From Aneurinibacillus soli (GTDB lineage: Bacteria; Bacillota; Bacilli; Aneurinibacillales; Aneurinibacillaceae), in NCBI RefSeq assembly GCF_002355375.1, contig NZ_AP017312.1, positions 1,257,001-1,321,000 on the forward strand: a stretch of 64,000 bases of DNA, written 5' to 3'. Position 1 is the first letter of the stretch. Every line of letters starts with the position of its first letter. Position numbers and translations under genes: made by a program. The notes beneath the pieces are model-generated. The model saw only the letters and a list, made by a program, of their open reading frames with translations, did no database searches and had not been told where the DNA came from. Positions 137 through 7,888 of the stretch are shown one piece after another.

Positions 137-1030
137 TTAGTGTTGATTTATTCCTAGCATGCCGATCCAAATTTTGTGTACCATATCTGAACTTGCGTTA
201 AATGTAGCATGACTTAAAAAGCTTGCTATTAGCCCATATCTCAAAAAGAAAAACCAATCAACGACACCACCCAAAAAATATAAATGAAAGTTTGTTATAT
301 CAGGTTTATGAAGTATAGAAAACACAGTTGAAGCAACGATTACATAGATGCATGTCCCTAATTTACTACTTCTTTGAAATATCTTTTGTACAAAAATTTC
401 TATCATAATGTTAAATAAGTTCAGCATCTTATATAAAACCATCTGCGCAGCATTAAAAGTTTTAACTTTTTCTCTTGGTAAAGGAGCTATCATTGAAAGT
501 AACAATAAACACACACCATCATAAAATAAAAAACGTGTTATAAATTCTTCATTTGATGGAGCTATGATACATGTTAGAAACCAATTAGCAAAACGGGACA
601 GATGTCCATCATCTTTTACTTGTCCACTGCCTATACCAATGATATCTCCATTAAATATTAGAGGAAGGTATCGTGTTCCTTCAAGAATAAACACGGTGAT
701 TACTCCTATTACAATTGGTTTAGAAATAACTGATATGTAGTCTTTACTAGTAATCAGTCGCTCCATGAATGCTTTTCTTAAATTTGAAAAACTCATTAGG
801 AAAAAGAGTGCCATATATGCAGGTACAAATGCCAGTTGTATATCTTCTTCTGTCATTCCCCAATTCATCTTGATATTGATGATTAAAATTAGTACACAAA
901 TAGAAATAAATATTAAAAAGAATTTCATCATTCTAATTGCTGATCTAATAGTAATCCCTCCTTTTTTCCATATACTTATGAAGATAAATGGGACAAAATG
1001 CAAAAATAAAATGACTAGTTTAATTGACAC
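137..1030 (-). CDS. CPBP-family intramembrane metalloprotease-like protein
   Basis: A 297-residue, strongly hydrophobic protein with several membrane segments. It has the three motifs expected of CPBP (Abi/CAAX-protease) proteins in the right order: EExxxR (EEFITR, about residue 161), FxxxH (FSILH, about 238) and HxxxN near the C-terminus (HATFN, about 277). These should supply the glutamate, histidine and asparagine of the membrane-embedded active site. Known members act in CAAX-type processing, bacteriocin self-immunity or signalling; the substrate here is unknown. The GTG start at 1030 lacks a well-spaced ribosome site, so the N-terminus is uncertain. Base composition is far more AT-rich than the chromosome to the right, suggesting acquired DNA. 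It diverges from the ankyrin lipoprotein gene. Confidence 0.7.
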   Translation of the reverse strand: MSIKLVILFLHFVPFIFISIWKKGGITIRSAIRMMKFFLIFISICVLILIINIKMNWGMTEEDIQLAFVPAYMALFFLMSFSNLRKAFMERLITSKDYISVISKPIVIGVITVFILEGTRYLPLIFNGDIIGIGSGQVKDDGHLSRFANWFLTCIIAPSNEEFITRFLFYDGVCLLLLSMIAPLPREKVKTFNAAQMVLYKMLNLFNIMIEIFVQKIFQRSSKLGTCIYVIVASTVFSILHKPDITNFHLYFLGGVVDWFFFLRYGLIASFLSHATFNASSDMVHKIWIGMLGINQH

Positions 1031-1147: not shown

Positions 1148-2236
1148 TTGAAAAAAACGTTATTAAGCCTAATGGTTATTACTGTTCTTCTTTCGGGTTG
1201 TGGAACTACCCCAGAAAAGGCAAGAGAAGAACTTGGAAAAATGAATATCCAGTACACAAATTCAAGTTTTGTAAATGCAGCAAGTAACAATGATACAATG
1301 GTTATCGATTATTTTATTAAGTCTGGGATGAGCCCGAATGTACAGGATACAGATGGGAAGACAGCTCTAGCTGAAGCGACTAGGCTCGGACATTCTGGTA
1401 TTGCTAAAATGCTTTTTGAAAATGGGGCTGATCCTACTCTTAAAGACCGAGCGGGGATGAATGCCTTATACTATGCTGCTGCAGATGAAAATAAATTTGA
1501 CTTGTTACAATCTTTTCTTAGTAAAAAAGCGGATATTAATGCTCTGACAAATAATAAAACATTACTTATGACTGCAGCAGAAAACGGAAATAACAAAGCA
1601 ATTGATTTGCTATTAAGCAAGGGAGCAGATATTAATATAAAAAACCAACTGGGTGAAACAGCATTATCGAAAGCTGTTGTCACAGGTAGTATAGAAACAG
1701 TCAAATTATTATTAAACAAAGGTGCAAATCCTAAAGATAAAATTCAAGGAAAAGGAAGTCTGTCTACATTGGCTGCCTATTCTGGGTATAGAGAAATTAC
1801 GGAGATGTTAATAAATAAGGGTACAAAAGAAATGAGTCTTCTTGTTTTACCTGAGGTTAATAAAACAGAGGGAGTTAAAGAAAATGAAGTGATTTCTAGC
1901 AATCCAGAACTTCATTTTACCAAAAATTATAATTCAGCGAATCCCGAAGTTACTTATAATTTGGATGGAAAGGGACAAAAATTAACTTTTCGTTTTCAAA
2001 ATGATCAAGAGCATGTAGGCTGGTTCAATCCATATTACCGAGCTAAGGTTATTGTTAAAGGGGATGGAAAGGTATTATTAGAAAGTGGATTTTTGGAAGG
2101 TGGAAAATCTCCAAAGGAGTATTCAGTTGAGGTAAAAGGAATAAAAAATTTAACATTAAGTGTGCACTATGATTCGAAAGATGGGTTGGCAGATAATAAA
2201 AGTACAATTTTTAATCCCGTAATTTTGGTTCAGTAA
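1148..2236 (+). CDS. Ankyrin-repeat lipoprotein with C-terminal beta-rich domain
   Basis: 362 residues from a TTG start preceded by a GTGAGGG ribosome site. Residues 1-18 form a lipoprotein signal with lipobox LLSGC (Cys18), so it should be anchored outside the membrane. About residues 40-230 are five to six ankyrin repeats (GADPTLKD, KGADINIKN and KGANPKD style loops), a protein-binding scaffold. Residues about 255-362 form a separate beta-rich domain (GWFNPYYRAKV, LSVHYDSKDG) resembling NPCBM/NEW2-type carbohydrate-binding modules; that resemblance is tentative. The region is AT-rich like its divergent protease neighbour. Role unknown; a surface or immunity scaffold is possible. Confidence 0.75.
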   Translation: MKKTLLSLMVITVLLSGCGTTPEKAREELGKMNIQYTNSSFVNAASNNDTMVIDYFIKSGMSPNVQDTDGKTALAEATRLGHSGIAKMLFENGADPTLKDRAGMNALYYAAADENKFDLLQSFLSKKADINALTNNKTLLMTAAENGNNKAIDLLLSKGADINIKNQLGETALSKAVVTGSIETVKLLLNKGANPKDKIQGKGSLSTLAAYSGYREITEMLINKGTKEMSLLVLPEVNKTEGVKENEVISSNPELHFTKNYNSANPEVTYNLDGKGQKLTFRFQNDQEHVGWFNPYYRAKVIVKGDGKVLLESGFLEGGKSPKEYSVEVKGIKNLTLSVHYDSKDGLADNKSTIFNPVILVQ

Positions 2237-2249
2237 TGGATAGCTAAAA

Positions 2250-2297
2250 ATAGGCTCATCCGCTGGAACCGTACAGGCACGGACTGGGCGGGGCGCT
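2250..2297 (+). repeat. Probable fragment of the inverted-repeat element family
   Basis: Between the ankyrin gene and sigK, the stretch with TCCGCTGG and CGTACAGGC in that order resembles the right half of the repeat elements, where TCCGCTGGGGAATCGCGTACAGGC occurs in the reverse of 33035-33070. Only about 40 bases match and no partner arm was found, so this would be a truncated remnant. Confidence 0.35.
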
Positions 2298-2305
2298 CAT
2301 ACCCT
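2278..2305 (+). promoter_or_regulatory. Candidate sigma-K/sigma-E type promoter of sigK
   Basis: CATACCCT at 2298-2305 fits the CATAnnnT -10 pattern of sigma-K promoters and is close to the sigma-E -10. An AC dinucleotide lies about 16-17 bases upstream (GCACG), the minimal -35 of sigma-K. It lies about 35 bases before the sigK ATG. sigK is known to be transcribed by sigma-E and then sigma-K, so the context fits; the match itself is short. Confidence 0.4.
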
Positions 2306-2339
2306 GAGATAAGGTGAAAAACATCTCGGAGGTGACGCC

Positions 2340-3053
2340 ATGTCAAGCTTGTTCGCAATGCTGACTATGTTTTTCAAAGACATGATGATGTTCGTGTCGT
2401 ACATCAAGAACAACGCATTTCCACAGCCGCTTAGTGAGATGGAAGAGAATCGGTATCTGGATTTGATGGCGGAAGGGGATAAGTATGCGCGGAATATGCT
2501 GATCGAGCACAATTTACGTTTGGTAGCGCATATAACAAAGAAGTTTGAAAACACCGGAGAAGACAGTGAAGACTTGATTTCCATTGGTACGATTGGACTT
2601 ATTAAGGCGATTGAAAGTTATAAGAAAAACAAAGGTACGAAGCTGGCAACATATGCAGCTCGCTGTATTGAAAACGAGATTCTCATGCATCTTAGATCTT
2701 TGAAGAAAACGAAGAAAGATGTATCTCTTCATGACCCGATCGGAACCGATAAAGAAGGAAACGAGATTTCCCTTATAGATATCTTAGGAACAGAGGCAAA
2801 CGAAATTGAGGATCTGGTGCAGCTCAAAATTGAGAAAAACAAAATTTACAAGCATATTCACATCCTCGATGAGAGAGAAAAAGAAGTCATCATTGGCCGC
2901 TTTGGATTAGATAACGAGGAAGAACGAACGCAACGGGAAATTGCACGGGAGTTGGGTATTTCACGGTCTTACGTGTCACGAATTGAAAAAAGAGCGTTGC
3001 TAAAACTTTTCCATGAGTTTTATCGGAAGAATGAAAACGGTATAAAAAGCTAG
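2340..3053 (+). CDS. sigK: RNA polymerase sporulation sigma factor SigK, complete
   Basis: 237 residues, intact and uninterrupted. The hydrophobic pro-sequence of 20 residues ends just before [12 protein letters not shown], the same place where pro-sigma-K of B. subtilis is cleaved, so mother-cell activation by SpoIVFB-type processing is expected. Region 2 contains [14 protein letters not shown] and [12 protein letters not shown]; region 4 contains the helix-turn-helix [20 protein letters not shown]. An SD sequence (GGAGGTG) sits ahead of the ATG. In B. subtilis and some relatives this gene is split by the skin element within the codons for NEISLID; here that point (nt 2760) is uninterrupted, but a second copy of everything downstream of it lies at 7283. 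It directs late mother-cell sporulation genes. Confidence 0.95.
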
Positions 3054-3061
3054 ACCAGAAC

Positions 3062-3100
3062 AAAAAGGACGCTTCCCGCTTTGGGAGCGTCCTTTTTGTC
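3062..3100 (+). terminator. Intrinsic terminator of sigK
   Basis: A GC-rich stem (GGACGCTTCCC with GGGAGCGTCC) flanked by A- and T-runs follows the sigK stop. The same GGACGC/GCGTCC hairpin, with different loop sequence, follows the orphan sigK fragment at 7598. Confidence 0.9.
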
Positions 3101-3278
3101 GTAAACCAAGCCTTACGGAGAGAATAGAAGGAGTTTAGCTAAGTTTATTATAAATTGAGTAAGTAAACAGTGCTTTTTAGTATATAGATCTGGTTTTGTT
3201 CAGAATTTGTTTAGAAGCCTCTGATACAATACAAAATTGTAAATCAATTTTGTAGAAAAAAGGAGGTAAGAATATTTC

Positions 3279-4886
3279 ATGTTCAAAATCAAATCAGTCT
3301 ATGTATGTTTTCTTTCTTTTCTTTTCATCTTTTCAACGTTTATAGGGGGACCGTTTACGAATCAAGTGTATGCTAAGACTCTTTGGGATGTAGTAGGGAC
3401 TGCCGGTTTCTCTTCCGGACAAATTAACTTCCCTTCACTTGCAATTGCCCCAGATGGAACGCCGTACGTAGCGTATACGGAAAGTAACGATAACAATAAT
3501 AAAGCAACGGTCAAGAAGTTTAATGGGTCAGGTTGGGAGACAGTAGGTACTGAAGGGTTCTCCGACGGTGCAGTTCACTACCCCTCGATTGCGATTGCTT
3601 CCGATGGAACGCCGTACGTAGCGTATAAGGATTGGGGGAACGGTCGGAAAGCAACGGTCATGAAATTTAATGGATCAAGTTGGGTACCGGTAGGCCCAGT
3701 AGGTTTCTCCGCTGGTTATGCTAACTACACGTCACTTGTGATTGCTCCGGATGGAACGCTGTATGTAGCGTATCAAGATCAGGCGAACGCTTCTAGAGCA
3801 ACGGTCAAGAAGTTTAATGTTCAAACTTCAAGTTGGGATACAGTAGGAGCAGGAGTAGGAGGAACTGGCGGTTTCTCTGCGGGTGAAGCCTATGATCTTT
3901 CATTTGCGATTTCTCCGAATGGAACGCCGTACGTAGCGTATACGGATACGGTGAATGGTTACAGAGCAACGGTTCAGAAGTTTAATGGGTCAAGTTGGGT
4001 ACCGGTAGGTCTAGTAGGTTTCACCGCTGGTTATGCTTCCAAGCCTTCACTTGCGATTGCTCCGGATGGAACGCCGTACCTAGCGTATGGTGATGGGCCG
4101 TACCAACTGTATGGTGGTGATGAAGGGAACGGTTATAAAGCAACGGTTAAGAAGTTTACTGGATCGGGTTTATCGGGCTGGGAGACGGTAGGAACGGAGG
4201 GCTTCTCAGCCGATAGGATGTCCTTCCTTTCACTTACGATTGCTTCCGATGGAACGCCGTACCTAGCGTATCAAGACGGTCTTCAGTACCTTTATAAAGC
4301 AACGGTCAAGAAATTTAATGGGTCAAGTTGGGAGTCGATAGGAACGGAGGGATTCTCCGCTGGTCTCTCTAACTACATTTCTATTAAATTTGCCCCAGAT
4401 GGAACACCGTATGTAGCATATCTGGATGGGGGAAACGGTGTTAAAGCAACAGTCATGAAATATTCGACCGTATATACGGTGACCTATGAGGCGGGAGCGA
4501 ACGGCACAATCAGCTCAACAAGTGAGAATGTAGCACCCGGGAACCGTCCATCGTCGGTGCCTACGGTAACATCAAATATGGGTTATACATTTGCAGGATG
4601 GAGTAGTGATGGAGGAACGACAAAGCTGAGCAACGCACAAGTAGCGGCAACGCCAGTAACGGACGATATTACGTACACGGCGTACTATAAGGCGAAAGGT
4701 GATGCTAACGGGGATGGTGTGATAAGTCCGGCAGATGCCCTTCTCATCATCCAATATGCGCAGGGAAAAATCACGTTAACAGATGAGCAAAAAATGGATC
4801 TGGATATGAATGGTGATGGGAAAGTCGATAATCTGGACGCCAAAATCATTCTGGATATTTGCACGGGGAAAGGGAGAGTGGGCTAA
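3279..4886 (+). CDS. Secreted seven-bladed propeller protein with dockerin domain
   Basis: 535 residues with a signal peptide (about 1-32, ending near QVYA). Residues about 36-400 are seven repeats of 50-60 residues with the pattern GFSxG, S(L/I)xIAPDGTPYVAY, NGxKATVKKFNGSSW; seven such repeats suggest a beta-propeller. About 400-473 is an InlB-like/Listeria-Bacteroides repeat (GYTFAGWSSDG). About 474-535 is a type I dockerin with two calcium-loop segments (DANGDGVISPADA and DMNGDGKVDNLDA). Dockerins bind cohesins, and the next gene, which starts at the very next base, encodes cohesins; the two probably form one surface complex. The propeller's ligand is unknown. It lies inside the segment bounded by the two sigK 3' copies. 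An AGGAGG site precedes the ATG. Confidence 0.85.
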   Translation: MFKIKSVYVCFLSFLFIFSTFIGGPFTNQVYAKTLWDVVGTAGFSSGQINFPSLAIAPDGTPYVAYTESNDNNNKATVKKFNGSGWETVGTEGFSDGAVHYPSIAIASDGTPYVAYKDWGNGRKATVMKFNGSSWVPVGPVGFSAGYANYTSLVIAPDGTLYVAYQDQANASRATVKKFNVQTSSWDTVGAGVGGTGGFSAGEAYDLSFAISPNGTPYVAYTDTVNGYRATVQKFNGSSWVPVGLVGFTAGYASKPSLAIAPDGTPYLAYGDGPYQLYGGDEGNGYKATVKKFTGSGLSGWETVGTEGFSADRMSFLSLTIASDGTPYLAYQDGLQYLYKATVKKFNGSSWESIGTEGFSAGLSNYISIKFAPDGTPYVAYLDGGNGVKATVMKYSTVYTVTYEAGANGTISSTSENVAPGNRPSSVPTVTSNMGYTFAGWSSDGGTTKLSNAQVAATPVTDDITYTAYYKAKGDANGDGVISPADALLIIQYAQGKITLTDEQKMDLDMNGDGKVDNLDAKIILDICTGKGRVG

Positions 4887-7121
4887 TTGAAAGATAGCAA
4901 AATTGCTGGAAGACGTTTTGTTTTGCGCCGATTGATTTCGATGATGATGGTGTTGTGTATGATGTTTTCCCTAAGCTCAATGGGTGTCGTTAGTGCAGCA
5001 ACTGCCACCCATACAATTGAAGCTGGTAATGTAACAGGAAAGATTGGGGATACCGTTGACATTCCGGTATATGTGAATCCCATAAAAGAGATTATTGGCT
5101 ATACGATTACAACAACATATGACTCTATTTCGTTGGAGCCGGTAGAGGTAAAGGATGAAGCAACTTCTAGTATTTTTACTCCAGATAAAACAGTAAATGG
5201 CCAAGTGAAAGTTACGGCATCAACGTTTGGAACCGATTTTTTTATTAATAAAAGACAGAAAGTATTTACGATTCGGTTCAAAATTAAAGACACAGCATCC
5301 CTTCCTGGTACAACGCCAGTGAGCCTGTCTGGTACGGTTACAGAAGATGTAGATCCGATAGAGGCGACAGCCATATCAGGCAAAGTATCATTACAGGGTA
5401 CAGCAACCGTAGGAATCGGTAGTGCAAGTGGACAAGCAGGAGCAACGGTAGTGGTGCCGGTTACGGCAACCAGCGCATTGCCAGCTATCGGTTCTTATGG
5501 GATGCAGATTGATTTTGACAAAAGTGCACTGGAAGTCGTCAGCATTCAAGAAGATTCGGGTGGTGACATCTTTTCGTCGAACTACAACAATACGGAAGGT
5601 TGGCTGAAAACAGCGTGGGCTGACGGTACTGGTGGTGACAGCCCGATCGGTGCAGGCAAGAAACTATTCACGGTAACGTTCAAGATTAAAAATACAGCCA
5701 CAGCAGGCGACAAGGCATTGACCGTCAATACAAACGCAAACGATGTGCAATATTTCTCGCTTACGGATACACTTGCAACGGAAATGAGTAAGACACTAAA
5801 CGTTGGGAAAGTAACGGTGACGGCATCGACACCGCCTTCTAACGGTGGTGGAGGTGGAGGTCGAGACTCTTCTACTCCAAGTAACACCCGAACCTCTTCT
5901 GTTCTAGTCGGGGAGAATGAAAAAGGGAAACAAGCAGCTAGTGTAGAGATTACACGAACTGTTACAGCAGATGGGAAAAAGAGTGATACAGTAACTTTAG
6001 ATTCCAAAAAAGCAGCCGAAGCGATTGCCAAAGCGACAGATAACATGAACAAGGTAACTGTCTCCATTCCTGATCTGAAAGGAAATGAAGCGCAGGAGAT
6101 TGTAGCGAATGTACAGAAAGAGGCATTGGCTACCATGGCAGACAAAGGATTCTCAGCTCAAGTTGTGACAGATAAAGCGACGATTGAACTTCCGAAAGAA
6201 ACGGTGTCGTCTCTCAGTAAAAAAGACGTATACATGAAAATTGAGCCTGTAACGAAAGAAACCGAGATTCAACAAACAAAAACATTGCTGAGTGTACAGG
6301 CGAAGGATGGAAATGTAATCGGAACTCCGTTACACATCGAGACGAACTTCTCGGGTCGTACGAAAATCACGCTTCCATTGAAGGGAATGAACATCCCAAC
6401 CGAAGTGAAGGAACAGGAAGCGTTCTTACATTCTCTCGCTGTCTTCATTGAACATAGCGATGGCGAGAAAAAAGTAGATAAAGGCGAAATTCAATACGAT
6501 GAGAAGAAAAATCCAATCGGTCTTTCAATTTGGGTGGATAAGTTCAGTACCTTCACGATTGTTGGGCTGCCAGAAAAGAAGGAAGAAACTAAAGCTGCTT
6601 TGAAAGACATTCAAGGGCACTGGGCAGAAGCGCGCATTCAACAACTTGTACAAAGCGGAGCCGTTAACGGTTATCCAGATGGTACGTTTAAACCAAACCA
6701 AACGATTACCCGTGCTGAATTTGTCGCAATGGTCGTAAAAGCATTTGGATTACAACCAAAAGAAAATCAGGGTGTTGTCTTTACTGACATCCAGAACCAT
6801 TGGGCAAAAGAAGCGATCAAAATAGCATACGCGAATGGAATTATCAACGGCTACAATGCCACAACATTTGGAGCCAACGACACGATTACGCGCGAACAAA
6901 TGGCGGTCATTTTAACGAACATCAAGAAGAACGGTACAGAAGGAAAACAACTGTCATTCAAGGATGCAACGTCGATCTCTGCATGGGCACAAAAAGCAGT
7001 AAGCAAGGCAGTAGAAGAAGGAATCGTTACGGGCTATCCAGATCAAACGTTCAAGCCGCATAAGACGGCTACAAGAGCGGAAGCGGTAACCATGATTCAT
7101 AATGCTTTAACCATGAAATAA
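4887..7121 (+). CDS. SLH-anchored scaffold protein with two cohesin-like domains
   Basis: 744 residues from a TTG start directly abutting the stop of the dockerin gene. A signal peptide spans about 1-37. Two cohesin-like beta domains follow: about 40-170 (GKIGDTVDIPVYVNP, IGYTITTTYDS) and about 172-310 (GQAGATVVVPVTATS, GSYGMQIDFDKSALEVVS). A Gly/Ser/Thr linker (about 315-330) and a long region of uncertain fold (about 335-570) come next. The C-terminus carries three SLH domains (571-744; GHWAEARIQQL, NHWAKEAIKIAYANGIINGY, TGYPDQTFKP), which bind pyruvylated secondary cell-wall polymer. The architecture matches a small anchoring scaffoldin. It should hold the adjacent dockerin protein at the cell surface. 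Confidence 0.85.
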   Translation: MKDSKIAGRRFVLRRLISMMMVLCMMFSLSSMGVVSAATATHTIEAGNVTGKIGDTVDIPVYVNPIKEIIGYTITTTYDSISLEPVEVKDEATSSIFTPDKTVNGQVKVTASTFGTDFFINKRQKVFTIRFKIKDTASLPGTTPVSLSGTVTEDVDPIEATAISGKVSLQGTATVGIGSASGQAGATVVVPVTATSALPAIGSYGMQIDFDKSALEVVSIQEDSGGDIFSSNYNNTEGWLKTAWADGTGGDSPIGAGKKLFTVTFKIKNTATAGDKALTVNTNANDVQYFSLTDTLATEMSKTLNVGKVTVTASTPPSNGGGGGGRDSSTPSNTRTSSVLVGENEKGKQAASVEITRTVTADGKKSDTVTLDSKKAAEAIAKATDNMNKVTVSIPDLKGNEAQEIVANVQKEALATMADKGFSAQVVTDKATIELPKETVSSLSKKDVYMKIEPVTKETEIQQTKTLLSVQAKDGNVIGTPLHIETNFSGRTKITLPLKGMNIPTEVKEQEAFLHSLAVFIEHSDGEKKVDKGEIQYDEKKNPIGLSIWVDKFSTFTIVGLPEKKEETKAALKDIQGHWAEARIQQLVQSGAVNGYPDGTFKPNQTITRAEFVAMVVKAFGLQPKENQGVVFTDIQNHWAKEAIKIAYANGIINGYNATTFGANDTITREQMAVILTNIKKNGTEGKQLSFKDATSISAWAQKAVSKAVEEGIVTGYPDQTFKPHKTATRAEAVTMIHNALTMK

Positions 7122-7134
7122 GATAAGGAACAAG

Positions 7135-7187
7135 AAGTCTGACATGTACCCGATTCATAAGAAATGGGGAATTGTTGGGCTTTTTTA
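7135..7187 (+). terminator. Terminator of the cohesin/dockerin operon
   Basis: AAGTCTGACA (7135-7144) can pair fully, using three G-U pairs, with TGTTGGGCTT (7173-7182), followed by a T run. Confidence 0.65.
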
Positions 7188-7282
7188 TATAGATAGTATA
7201 CTTGCTGTGTCCCTTCGGATAGATACCTTTATCAAGTAAAGGGAACTACGTTTATTTGAAAAACAGATAACCCATTAGTAGA

Positions 7283-7576
7283 AATGAAATTAGCCTAATC
7301 GATATTCTAGGTACGGAAGCTAATGAAATCGAAGACCTTGTTCAGCTCAAAATCGAAAAAAATAAAATCTATAAGCACATTCATATTCTCGATGAACGGG
7401 AAAAGGAAGTCATCATCGGTCGTTTTGGACTCGACAACGAAGAAGAGCGTACCCAGCGTGAGATTGCGCGGGAGCTAGGGATTTCACGGTCCTATGTGTC
7501 ACGCATTGAGAAGCGGGCATTGCTTAAGCTGTTCCATGAATTTTATCGTAAGAATGAAAGCGAAGTAAAAAATTAA
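7283..7576 (+). pseudogene. sigK: Orphan 3' fragment of a second sigK
   Basis: 97 codons plus stop encode a protein segment from [18 protein letters not shown] to the C-terminus, identical to residues 141-232 of the complete SigK and differing only in the last few residues (93 of 97 identical). By hand count about 67 of 294 bases differ, almost all synonymous, so this is an old or interspecies copy rather than a recent duplication. Its first five bases are AATGA, the core at which the B. subtilis skin element splits sigK (from memory). Upstream similarity stops there, and an in-frame TAA lies five codons earlier (7268-7270). There is no start codon or ribosome site, so it is not an independent gene. 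Its own terminator and csp follow. Confidence 0.9.
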
Positions 7577-7597
7577 TGGTTTTATCTATTTTCACAG

Positions 7598-7630
7598 AAA
7601 AGGACGCCCCCCAATGGGGAGCGTCCTTTT
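7598..7630. terminator. Bidirectional terminator between sigK fragment and csp
   Basis: AAAAGGACGCCCCCC-AAT-GGGGAGCGTCCTTTT: a strong stem with A-run before and T-run after, so it can serve both the plus-strand fragment and the minus-strand cold-shock gene. It is homologous to the hairpin at 3062. Confidence 0.9.
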
Positions 7631-7643
7631 GCATAACTGAGCC

Positions 7644-7847
7644 TTACAGTTTAACTACGTTTTCAGCTTGTGGTCCACGGTTGCCCTGAACGATCGAGAA
7701 CTGAACGCGTTGTCCTTCTTCTAACGATTTGAATCCTTCGCCTGTGATCGCGCTGAAGTGAACGAATACATCGCTGCCGCCTTCAACTTCGATAAAGCCA
7801 AAACCTTTTTCAGCATTAAACCACTTAACTGTTCCTGTTGTTTGCAT
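7644..7847 (-). CDS. Cold-shock protein (CspA/CspB family)
   Basis: 67 residues, the usual family length. RNP1 (KGFGFIEV) and RNP2 (VFVHFSAI) motifs are present, giving a single-stranded RNA/DNA-binding OB fold used as an RNA chaperone. The ATG at 7847 sits eight bases after a perfect GGAGG; an in-frame upstream TTG would translate the ribosome site and is rejected. It converges on the orphan sigK fragment and has a promoter about 70-95 bases upstream. Confidence 0.95.
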
Positions 7848-7888
7848 GAAAGGAACCTCCAAAAAATTATTATTTATATAGGGTCTCT

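Follow-up and report, generated by a model that had tools for sequence, protein, structure and literature searches.

A whole sigK among displaced gene ends in Aneurinibacillus soli: a possible hub for end-replacing islands

The prophages e14 and phage 21 supply icd, the gene that they enter, with an alternative 3' end, and the staphylococcal cassette chromosome (SCC) elements at rlmH use serine-recombinase sites in a conserved gene, form tandem arrays, and include many members without a recombinase. Here we consider sigK, the gene for the sporulation regulator sigma-K, in a 64,000-nucleotide stretch of Aneurinibacillus soli DNA (hereafter the window; C1:1257001-1321000 of the 4.12-Mb single-contig genome G000), where an uninterrupted sigK is accompanied by an orphan 3' half downstream and by displaced 5' ends upstream. 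Unlike e14 and phage 21, which are single tyrosine-integrase prophages, the putative sigK islands form arrays and lie in a developmental gene. Unlike SCC, which concerns only the very end of rlmH, they appear to have exchanged large parts of the gene, and from both sides.

The elements described for sigK itself, skin and its counterparts in B. subtilis, C. difficile, and the B. cereus group, resemble this locus in the gene that they enter and in the serine recombinases of its relatives (PMC6957869, PMC5025042, PMC10745906). Those elements keep the gene split until excision, whereas sigK in A. soli is whole, its native 3' end has been left stranded, and none of the recombinases compared belongs to the sigK-element families. 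The dusA islands, according to PMC4482086, replace the 5' end of their target gene with their own sequence and a putative promoter and leave the remnant 5' end behind. The sigK locus resembles them in the insertion inside a protein gene, the replacement of an end, and the stranding of a remnant, although at the 5' end of sigK this is read from the arrangement. It differs in that dusA islands carry their integrase, whereas the sigK islands have no integrase match and the sites in relatives are served by serine recombinases; in that both the 5' and the 3' ends are replaced and the displaced ends lie in arrays; and in that the target is developmentally excised elsewhere. Among the matches listed in the open-access literature, in their accessible portions, neither a whole sigK flanked by displaced ends nor a sigK with more than one element was described.

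The intact sigK (window 2340-3053) encodes 237 amino acids with no internal stop, and the orphan 3' part (7283-7576) comprises 97 codons. Both had been recognized in an earlier sequence-only reading, which counted about 67 differences in 294 bases by hand, nearly all silent; over codons 140-236 we measured 65 of 291 bases different, with 59 codons changed, 55 of them synonymously. Each copy is followed by a similar hairpin and T-run, judged by eye, in agreement with that reading. Likeness of the orphan to sigK sets in sharply at an AATGA-like core, again as described before, and to the left of the core lies an element arm of 22-28 bp rather than sigK. The same arm stands at the matching junctions of two congeners, G006 and G004, a coincidence that would not be expected by chance and that supports the earlier view of the orphan as the right junction of a skin-like sigK element. 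The working gene is unsplit, so that the split gene has been made whole again as proposed. An assembly artefact is unlikely: the genome is a single contig and the copies have diverged.

Comparison with the other members of our genus sample (seven genomes, G000-G006) indicates which of the two 3' ends is native. Over codons 143-236 the orphan and the 3' piece of G006 have 90.1% identity, and synteny with G006, at 87%, extends for 5.2 kb from the orphan onward (C1:1264261-1269420). Up to codon 140, the three segments of the working gene that were compared match G006 at 91-94%, but over codons 143-236 the gene is only 75-79% identical to every genus genome and 78% identical to the orphan. A single-changepoint scan of the working gene against G006 placed the break at codon 134.7, with mismatches at 7.0% before and 23.1% after (0/200 permutations), while a control composite of working codons 1-140 and the orphan gave no changepoint (47/200). 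This was the sole pair at 0/200 among 27 genus pairs scanned; four others (G006/G004, G003/G004, G003/G002, and G004/G002) gave 3-9/200 at codons 18-43. The transition is abrupt, codons 113-133 being identical to G006 and codons 134-137 all different. In a tree of the 3' halves, a test suggested by the sequence-only reading, the orphan pairs with G006 (99/99) and the working half with G002 (92/90, long branch). On these comparisons the orphan is the native sigK 3' end and the working gene is foreign from codon ~135, and because the working half pairs with G002, its donor looks like a congener lineage and not another genus. Replacement of the left half by a complete sigK from a relative, one of two histories offered earlier, fits less well, since codons 1-133 are native-like; the other, an element that carried its own 3' end, is favoured, since only codons ~135-237 are foreign.

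Attachment sites occur in sigK at codons ~67, ~113, and ~141, here called A, B, and C. The AATGA at which the orphan begins is that in GNEISL at codon 141, which is site C. The earlier reading had placed it at the B. subtilis skin point, which is incorrect: in the B. subtilis-like genome G047, which we take to be strain 168, the break in sigK falls at codon ~113, within CIENEI, and AATGA stands at each of the element's ends, 48 kb apart. Site B is therefore the skin point; AATGA occurs in both CIENEI and GNEISL, 27-28 codons apart. Codon 141 is nonetheless a genuine site, because PMC10745906 reports insertions at sigK position 423 for B. cereus AH820, J7, and J62; the same source gives position 195 for B. 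cereus biovar anthracis. Site C is position 423 of the B. cereus group, and site A is near position 195. Because the gene is whole, no recombinase was found, and the point of insertion is different, the G000 locus is not a skin element, but it uses the same kind of sites.

All seven genus genomes contain sigK, and in five of them elements at two or three sites divide the gene, into four pieces in G003 and three each in G001, G004, G005, and G006; in G002 it is whole, on a 3.2-kb contig. The most elaborate case is G003 (C4:968625-1056885), in which four pieces are separated by three intervening elements (~15, 4, and 68 kb) within one gene. G001, whose main 3' piece sits on C249, has an additional partial 3' piece on another contig (C6:1973-2348, locus L053; approximately codons 154-236, with a run of Ns) that is perhaps a displaced end or an assembly artefact. 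Elements at the site of the orphan, on which the sequence-only reading depended, occur in G003-G006, and serine recombinases between sigK parts were found in the genus as it had anticipated. Each site is paired with its own large serine recombinase family: that of site A in G003 and G001 (56% identical), where it abuts the right junction; that of site B in five genomes (78-89% identical); and that of site C in four genomes, as two subtypes (48-88% identical). The set compared consisted of open reading frames at places matching PF00239 (serine recombinase). G000 has twelve such matches genome-wide, four of them small or fragmentary; the eight large serine recombinases were compared, and none is in family A, B, or C; the claim that the recombinase is gone thus holds for the sigK-element families within the eight of twelve compared. 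The nearest G000 serine recombinase is 35-39% identical to the site C family, and the stretch around one decayed PF00239 match gave no match to the recombinase set at E <= 1e-3. At the array itself (C1:1241600-1264280), including the 4.2 kb between the two 3' ends, there is no match to PF00239 or to PF00589, so that neither a serine recombinase within an element nor an integrase of the dusA type was detected.

Rearrangement at the 5' end lies beyond the left edge of the window, ~5-18 kb upstream of the working gene. Three displaced sigK 5' pieces, each spanning codons 1 to ~70, begin at C1:1241694, 1247417, and 1253851; a fourth, without codons ~16-64, begins at C1:1246266. All four are cut at codon ~67, where a common AAGA core leads directly into one and the same element left end, alike over 140-220 bp; in G003, whose sigK is split and has a site A recombinase, this left end likewise follows the 5' piece. 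All five 5' copies, counting that of the working gene, start at the same AAAAATAGG boundary. Additional upstream likeness, ~35 bp, is confined to the copy f1 with G001 and the copy f2 with G006, the latter two being mutually the closest 5' ends (94.9%), and no arm common to all copies was found upstream, the f2/G006-derived pattern occurring only in f2 and G006 among the stretches scanned. The segments between the copies are unlike one another and differ in cargo. The innermost island has its left end and displaced 5' end at C1:1253755-1254242. Three of the displaced ends (C1:1241694, 1247417, and 1253851) retain the conserved leader and ribosome site and could yield pro-sigma-K fragments of ~69-82 residues.

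We consider it moderately probable that sigK is a hub for end-replacing islands, which would have freed the gene from programmed excision. In relatives, elements at sites A, B, and C, each with its own serine recombinase family, split sigK, and the split gene presumably requires mother-cell excision as in B. subtilis. At site C in G000, an island would have brought a foreign 3' end, a terminator, and cargo, leaving the native 3' end 4.2 kb downstream. At site A there may have been about four rounds, each delivering a new promoter, the first 67 codons, and cargo, and each leaving the old 5' end, followed by the element left end, upstream; the 5' arrangement is plain, and from it we infer the order of events. 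Each round would be the entry of an island that supplied an end of the gene itself, as is reported for dusA islands, and sigK would be whole in G000 because the incoming segments carried the matching end. Sigma-K would then no longer depend on programmed excision, yet the islands remain. The arrangement at site C, the native and foreign 3' ends, the positions of the sites, the junction arms, and the arrays can be read from the sequences, and from these we infer the crossover chemistry, the mobility of the islands, and the delivery of the end by an island rather than by rescue.

Displaced 3' ends recur outside the genus. Among 44 Bacillus genomes, only whole sigK was found in 24 (one decayed), including G031 (63% match, two stops) and G026, whose extra 48% match was taken as a paralogue; sigK was split or incomplete in 12, including G053, with a 5' piece alone, and G038, whose pieces lie at the ends of contigs; and a whole sigK was accompanied by displaced 3' ends in eight. 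These ends derive from site B in five genomes (G020, G022, G043, and the decayed G025 and G045) and from site C in three (G021, G039, and G049), number one to four per genome, and in G021 lie in three of four cases on another contig. The repeat begins sharply at the attachment point (397 bp in G043, for example), and at the site C orphans of G039, G021, and G049 stands a AAAACGGATAACC arm similar to the right arm in the window. In G021, the 399 bp downstream of the working 3' end is 99.5% identical to the stretch that follows a displaced end of G039, and the outermost displaced ends of G039 and G049 have a common 90% tail; a succession of islands predicts such matches. (Two rows, G039o1 and G021o3, were out of register, at 30-35% to everything, and were left out of the 3'-half comparison.) Changepoint scans of 11 pairs in the B. 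licheniformis-like group gave seven with at most 9/500 permutations, at codons 141.0, 123.0, 152.0, 31.7, 137.0, 56.7, and 100.7, among them G039/G018 (codon 141.0, 0/500) and G039/G023 (codon 137, 4/500); the remaining four were not significant (60, 64, 145, and 258 of 500). A whole sigK with an extra 5' piece was seen in none of the 44 genomes at E <= 1e-22, a threshold that short pieces might fail to reach, and the 5' array has so far been seen only in the window genome. Order-wide, 199 genomes were drawn and 193 had a sigK match at this threshold. In G140, contig C12 carries a whole sigK and a second 3' half 16.5 kb apart (194699 and 211238). Among the 44 Bacillus genomes, G041 is distinctive in that a 5' piece (C7:2342988, plus strand) and a 3' piece (2351836, minus strand) lie on opposite strands, as if the element end were inverted.

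Several observations weigh against end-replacing islands. The foreign tract in G000 starts ~19 bp to the left of the AATGA core, not at it, and only two of the seven low-permutation changepoints in the B. licheniformis-like group fall within five codons of site C. The main objection is chemical: serine integrases normally join attP with attB, whereas an island circle closed by the arm and a sigK 3' end would present an attR-type site, and its insertion at attB would be non-canonical; non-canonical att reactions are mentioned for SCC recombinases in PMC5595907. A replacement end and an intact recombinase were never seen together on one island, and there was no intermediate among the seven genus genomes. 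With the genus recombinases as queries, the Bacillus islands yielded only recombinase gene fragments (50-59 residues, after the working sigK in G022, G025, and G045), which fit decay or rescue equally. In the site-B-type Bacillus genomes, identity between the working half and its displaced counterpart is 99-100% in four of five and 98% in the fifth, and so does not mark the working ends there as foreign. Finally, G140 is the only one of the 193 genomes of the order with a second 3' half.

Some of the same observations would suit rescue by uptake, in which splitting elements came first and intact sigK DNA, from a relative or from lysed mother cells, later recombined and left one half as a relic. 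The route would be homology on one side and an illegitimate joint inside the element on the other, with loss of the recombinase end. A foreign tract beginning before the core is what homologous exchange might give, the recombinase fragments lie just 3' of the working gene, the copied segment of G020 runs ~415 bp into a native-type flank (96%), and the two halves are 99-100% identical in four Bacillus genomes. Yet a two-sided repair that removes the element would be expected to be commoner, and the main objection is that four 5' relics and one 3' relic are kept in G000, the 5' ones with a common boundary. This AAAAATAGG boundary, at which all five 5' copies start, is not expected of random illegitimate joints, and the changepoint adjoins the attachment site in G000 and coincides with it in G039/G018. 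We regard rescue as somewhat unlikely, though it is the main alternative.

It is improbable that the 5' array is instead a cassette system, somewhat integron-like, run in trans by a tyrosine recombinase encoded at C1:2560062-2561030. The left-end sequence does occur six times in G000, once beside this gene, and likewise beside its counterpart in G006. However, the enzyme of site A in G003 and G001 is a serine recombinase, and the left end recurs in G003; hairpin sites of the cassette type were not demonstrated, the left-end repeats not having been folded for attC; and the other five genus genomes contain no match to the tyrosine recombinase at E <= 1e-60. Simple tandem or segmental duplication of sigK within the lineage followed by decay, which the closeness and common orientation of the pieces might suggest and which would have contradicted the sequence-only reading, is rejected as very improbable from the sequence identities, the synteny, and the changepoint: identity between the working 3' end and the orphan is 78%, yet the orphan, and not the working end, is the native copy, at 90% to the sister species; the copies end at attachment cores and are flanked by element arms found in other species; and the segments between them lack mutual similarity.

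The features of the locus are collected in Table 1. The likeness of the working gene's surroundings to the native flank stops soon after its hairpin, close to where the native downstream gene has its stop codon (by eye), and the upstream region of the working gene begins 9 bp past the stop codon of the ankyrin gene. Within the 3' island, a dockerin gene adjoins a cohesin and S-layer-homology (SLH) gene (window 3279-7121), possibly a small cohesin-dockerin surface pair carried as cargo.

Table 1. Features of the sigK locus, in window coordinates
Feature	Position	Strand	Basis
Rce1-like protease family protein, cargo of innermost 5' island	137..1030	-	
Ankyrin-repeat protein, last cargo gene of innermost 5' island	1148..2236	+	
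sigK upstream region (conserved leader, presumed promoter, ribosome site)	2246..2339	+	Copy alignment, sequence; begins at boundary common to five 5' copies
sigK codons 1-134, native-like	2340..2741	+	91-94% to G006, three segments up to codon 140
sigK codons 135-237 and stop, foreign	2742..3053	+	75-79% to all relatives (codons 143-236); tree with G002 92/90
Terminator-like hairpin, arriving with foreign 3' end	3062..3099	+	By eye
Dockerin type I repeat protein, 535 aa, island cargo	3279..4886	+	Pfam
Protein with two cohesins and three SLH stretches, 744 aa, island cargo	4887..7121	+	Pfam
Element right arm, attR-type junction of site C	7255..7282	+	Shared with G006, G004
Displaced native sigK 3' end, 97 codons and stop	7283..7576	+	90% to G006; conserved gene order after
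Native terminator-like hairpin of displaced 3' end	7598..7630	+	By eye
Start of native downstream flank, cold-shock-type gene (label by eye)	7644..7862	-	Synteny with G006

The cargo of the 5' array comprises, segment by segment, AMP-ligase, SDR, and Fic genes; HARE-HTH and two DUF445 genes; and SpoIVA-like, Rce1-like, and ankyrin genes. The SpoIVA-like gene, with a SpoIVA ATPase domain (329 amino acids; C1:1255972-1256961, L010 5972-6961), lies between the displaced end f3 and the working sigK. The left-end sequence gave six model matches in G000 (with one further partial copy), one in G006, and two in G003, counts on which a genome-wide repeat was set aside, and none at E <= 0.01 in the other eight genomes searched (best 150 of 376-822 candidates per genome). 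By eye only, it contains a reading frame for a possible short peptide. Whole or partial copies without sigK before them lie at C1:1238486-1238657 and 1245456-1245523, and genes to the left of the former (1237665-1238450) match a stretch inverted near the site B recombinase of G006. Another copy lies ~11 bp past the stop codon of the stand-alone tyrosine recombinase gene (323 amino acids; region to C1:2561262, L134 5062-6262); the G006 counterpart of this pair (C1:1955687-1956844) occupies the same chromosomal place with different neighbours. Elsewhere, a partial second sigE (C1:3742221-3742583, L137 6221-6583), 91% identical to the intact sigE over 97 residues and ~2.3 kb from the serine recombinase gene that is 35-39% identical to the site C family, was rejected as an interrupted sigma gene, being a decayed copy with a TAG stop.

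These findings touch on the question of why sigK carries excisable elements at all. In the arrangement described here the bargain looks reversed, since DNA that enters sigK would also supply the missing part, and its cargo would be kept without excision. The data suggest that parts of sigK have been exchanged between species at or near attachment sites, and with up to three such sites, separate recombinase families, and native ends left stranded, the past of a master regulator can be read and put to the test. More tentatively, half-gene sigK cassettes with cargo, consisting of a promoter and the first 67 codons or of the last ~97-125 codons and a terminator, may circulate among bacilli, moved by recombinases in trans, with sigK as a general integration hub. 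If so, an excision-dependent sigK would become a constitutively whole mosaic, and a master regulator of sporulation would evolve by module swaps at attachment sites.

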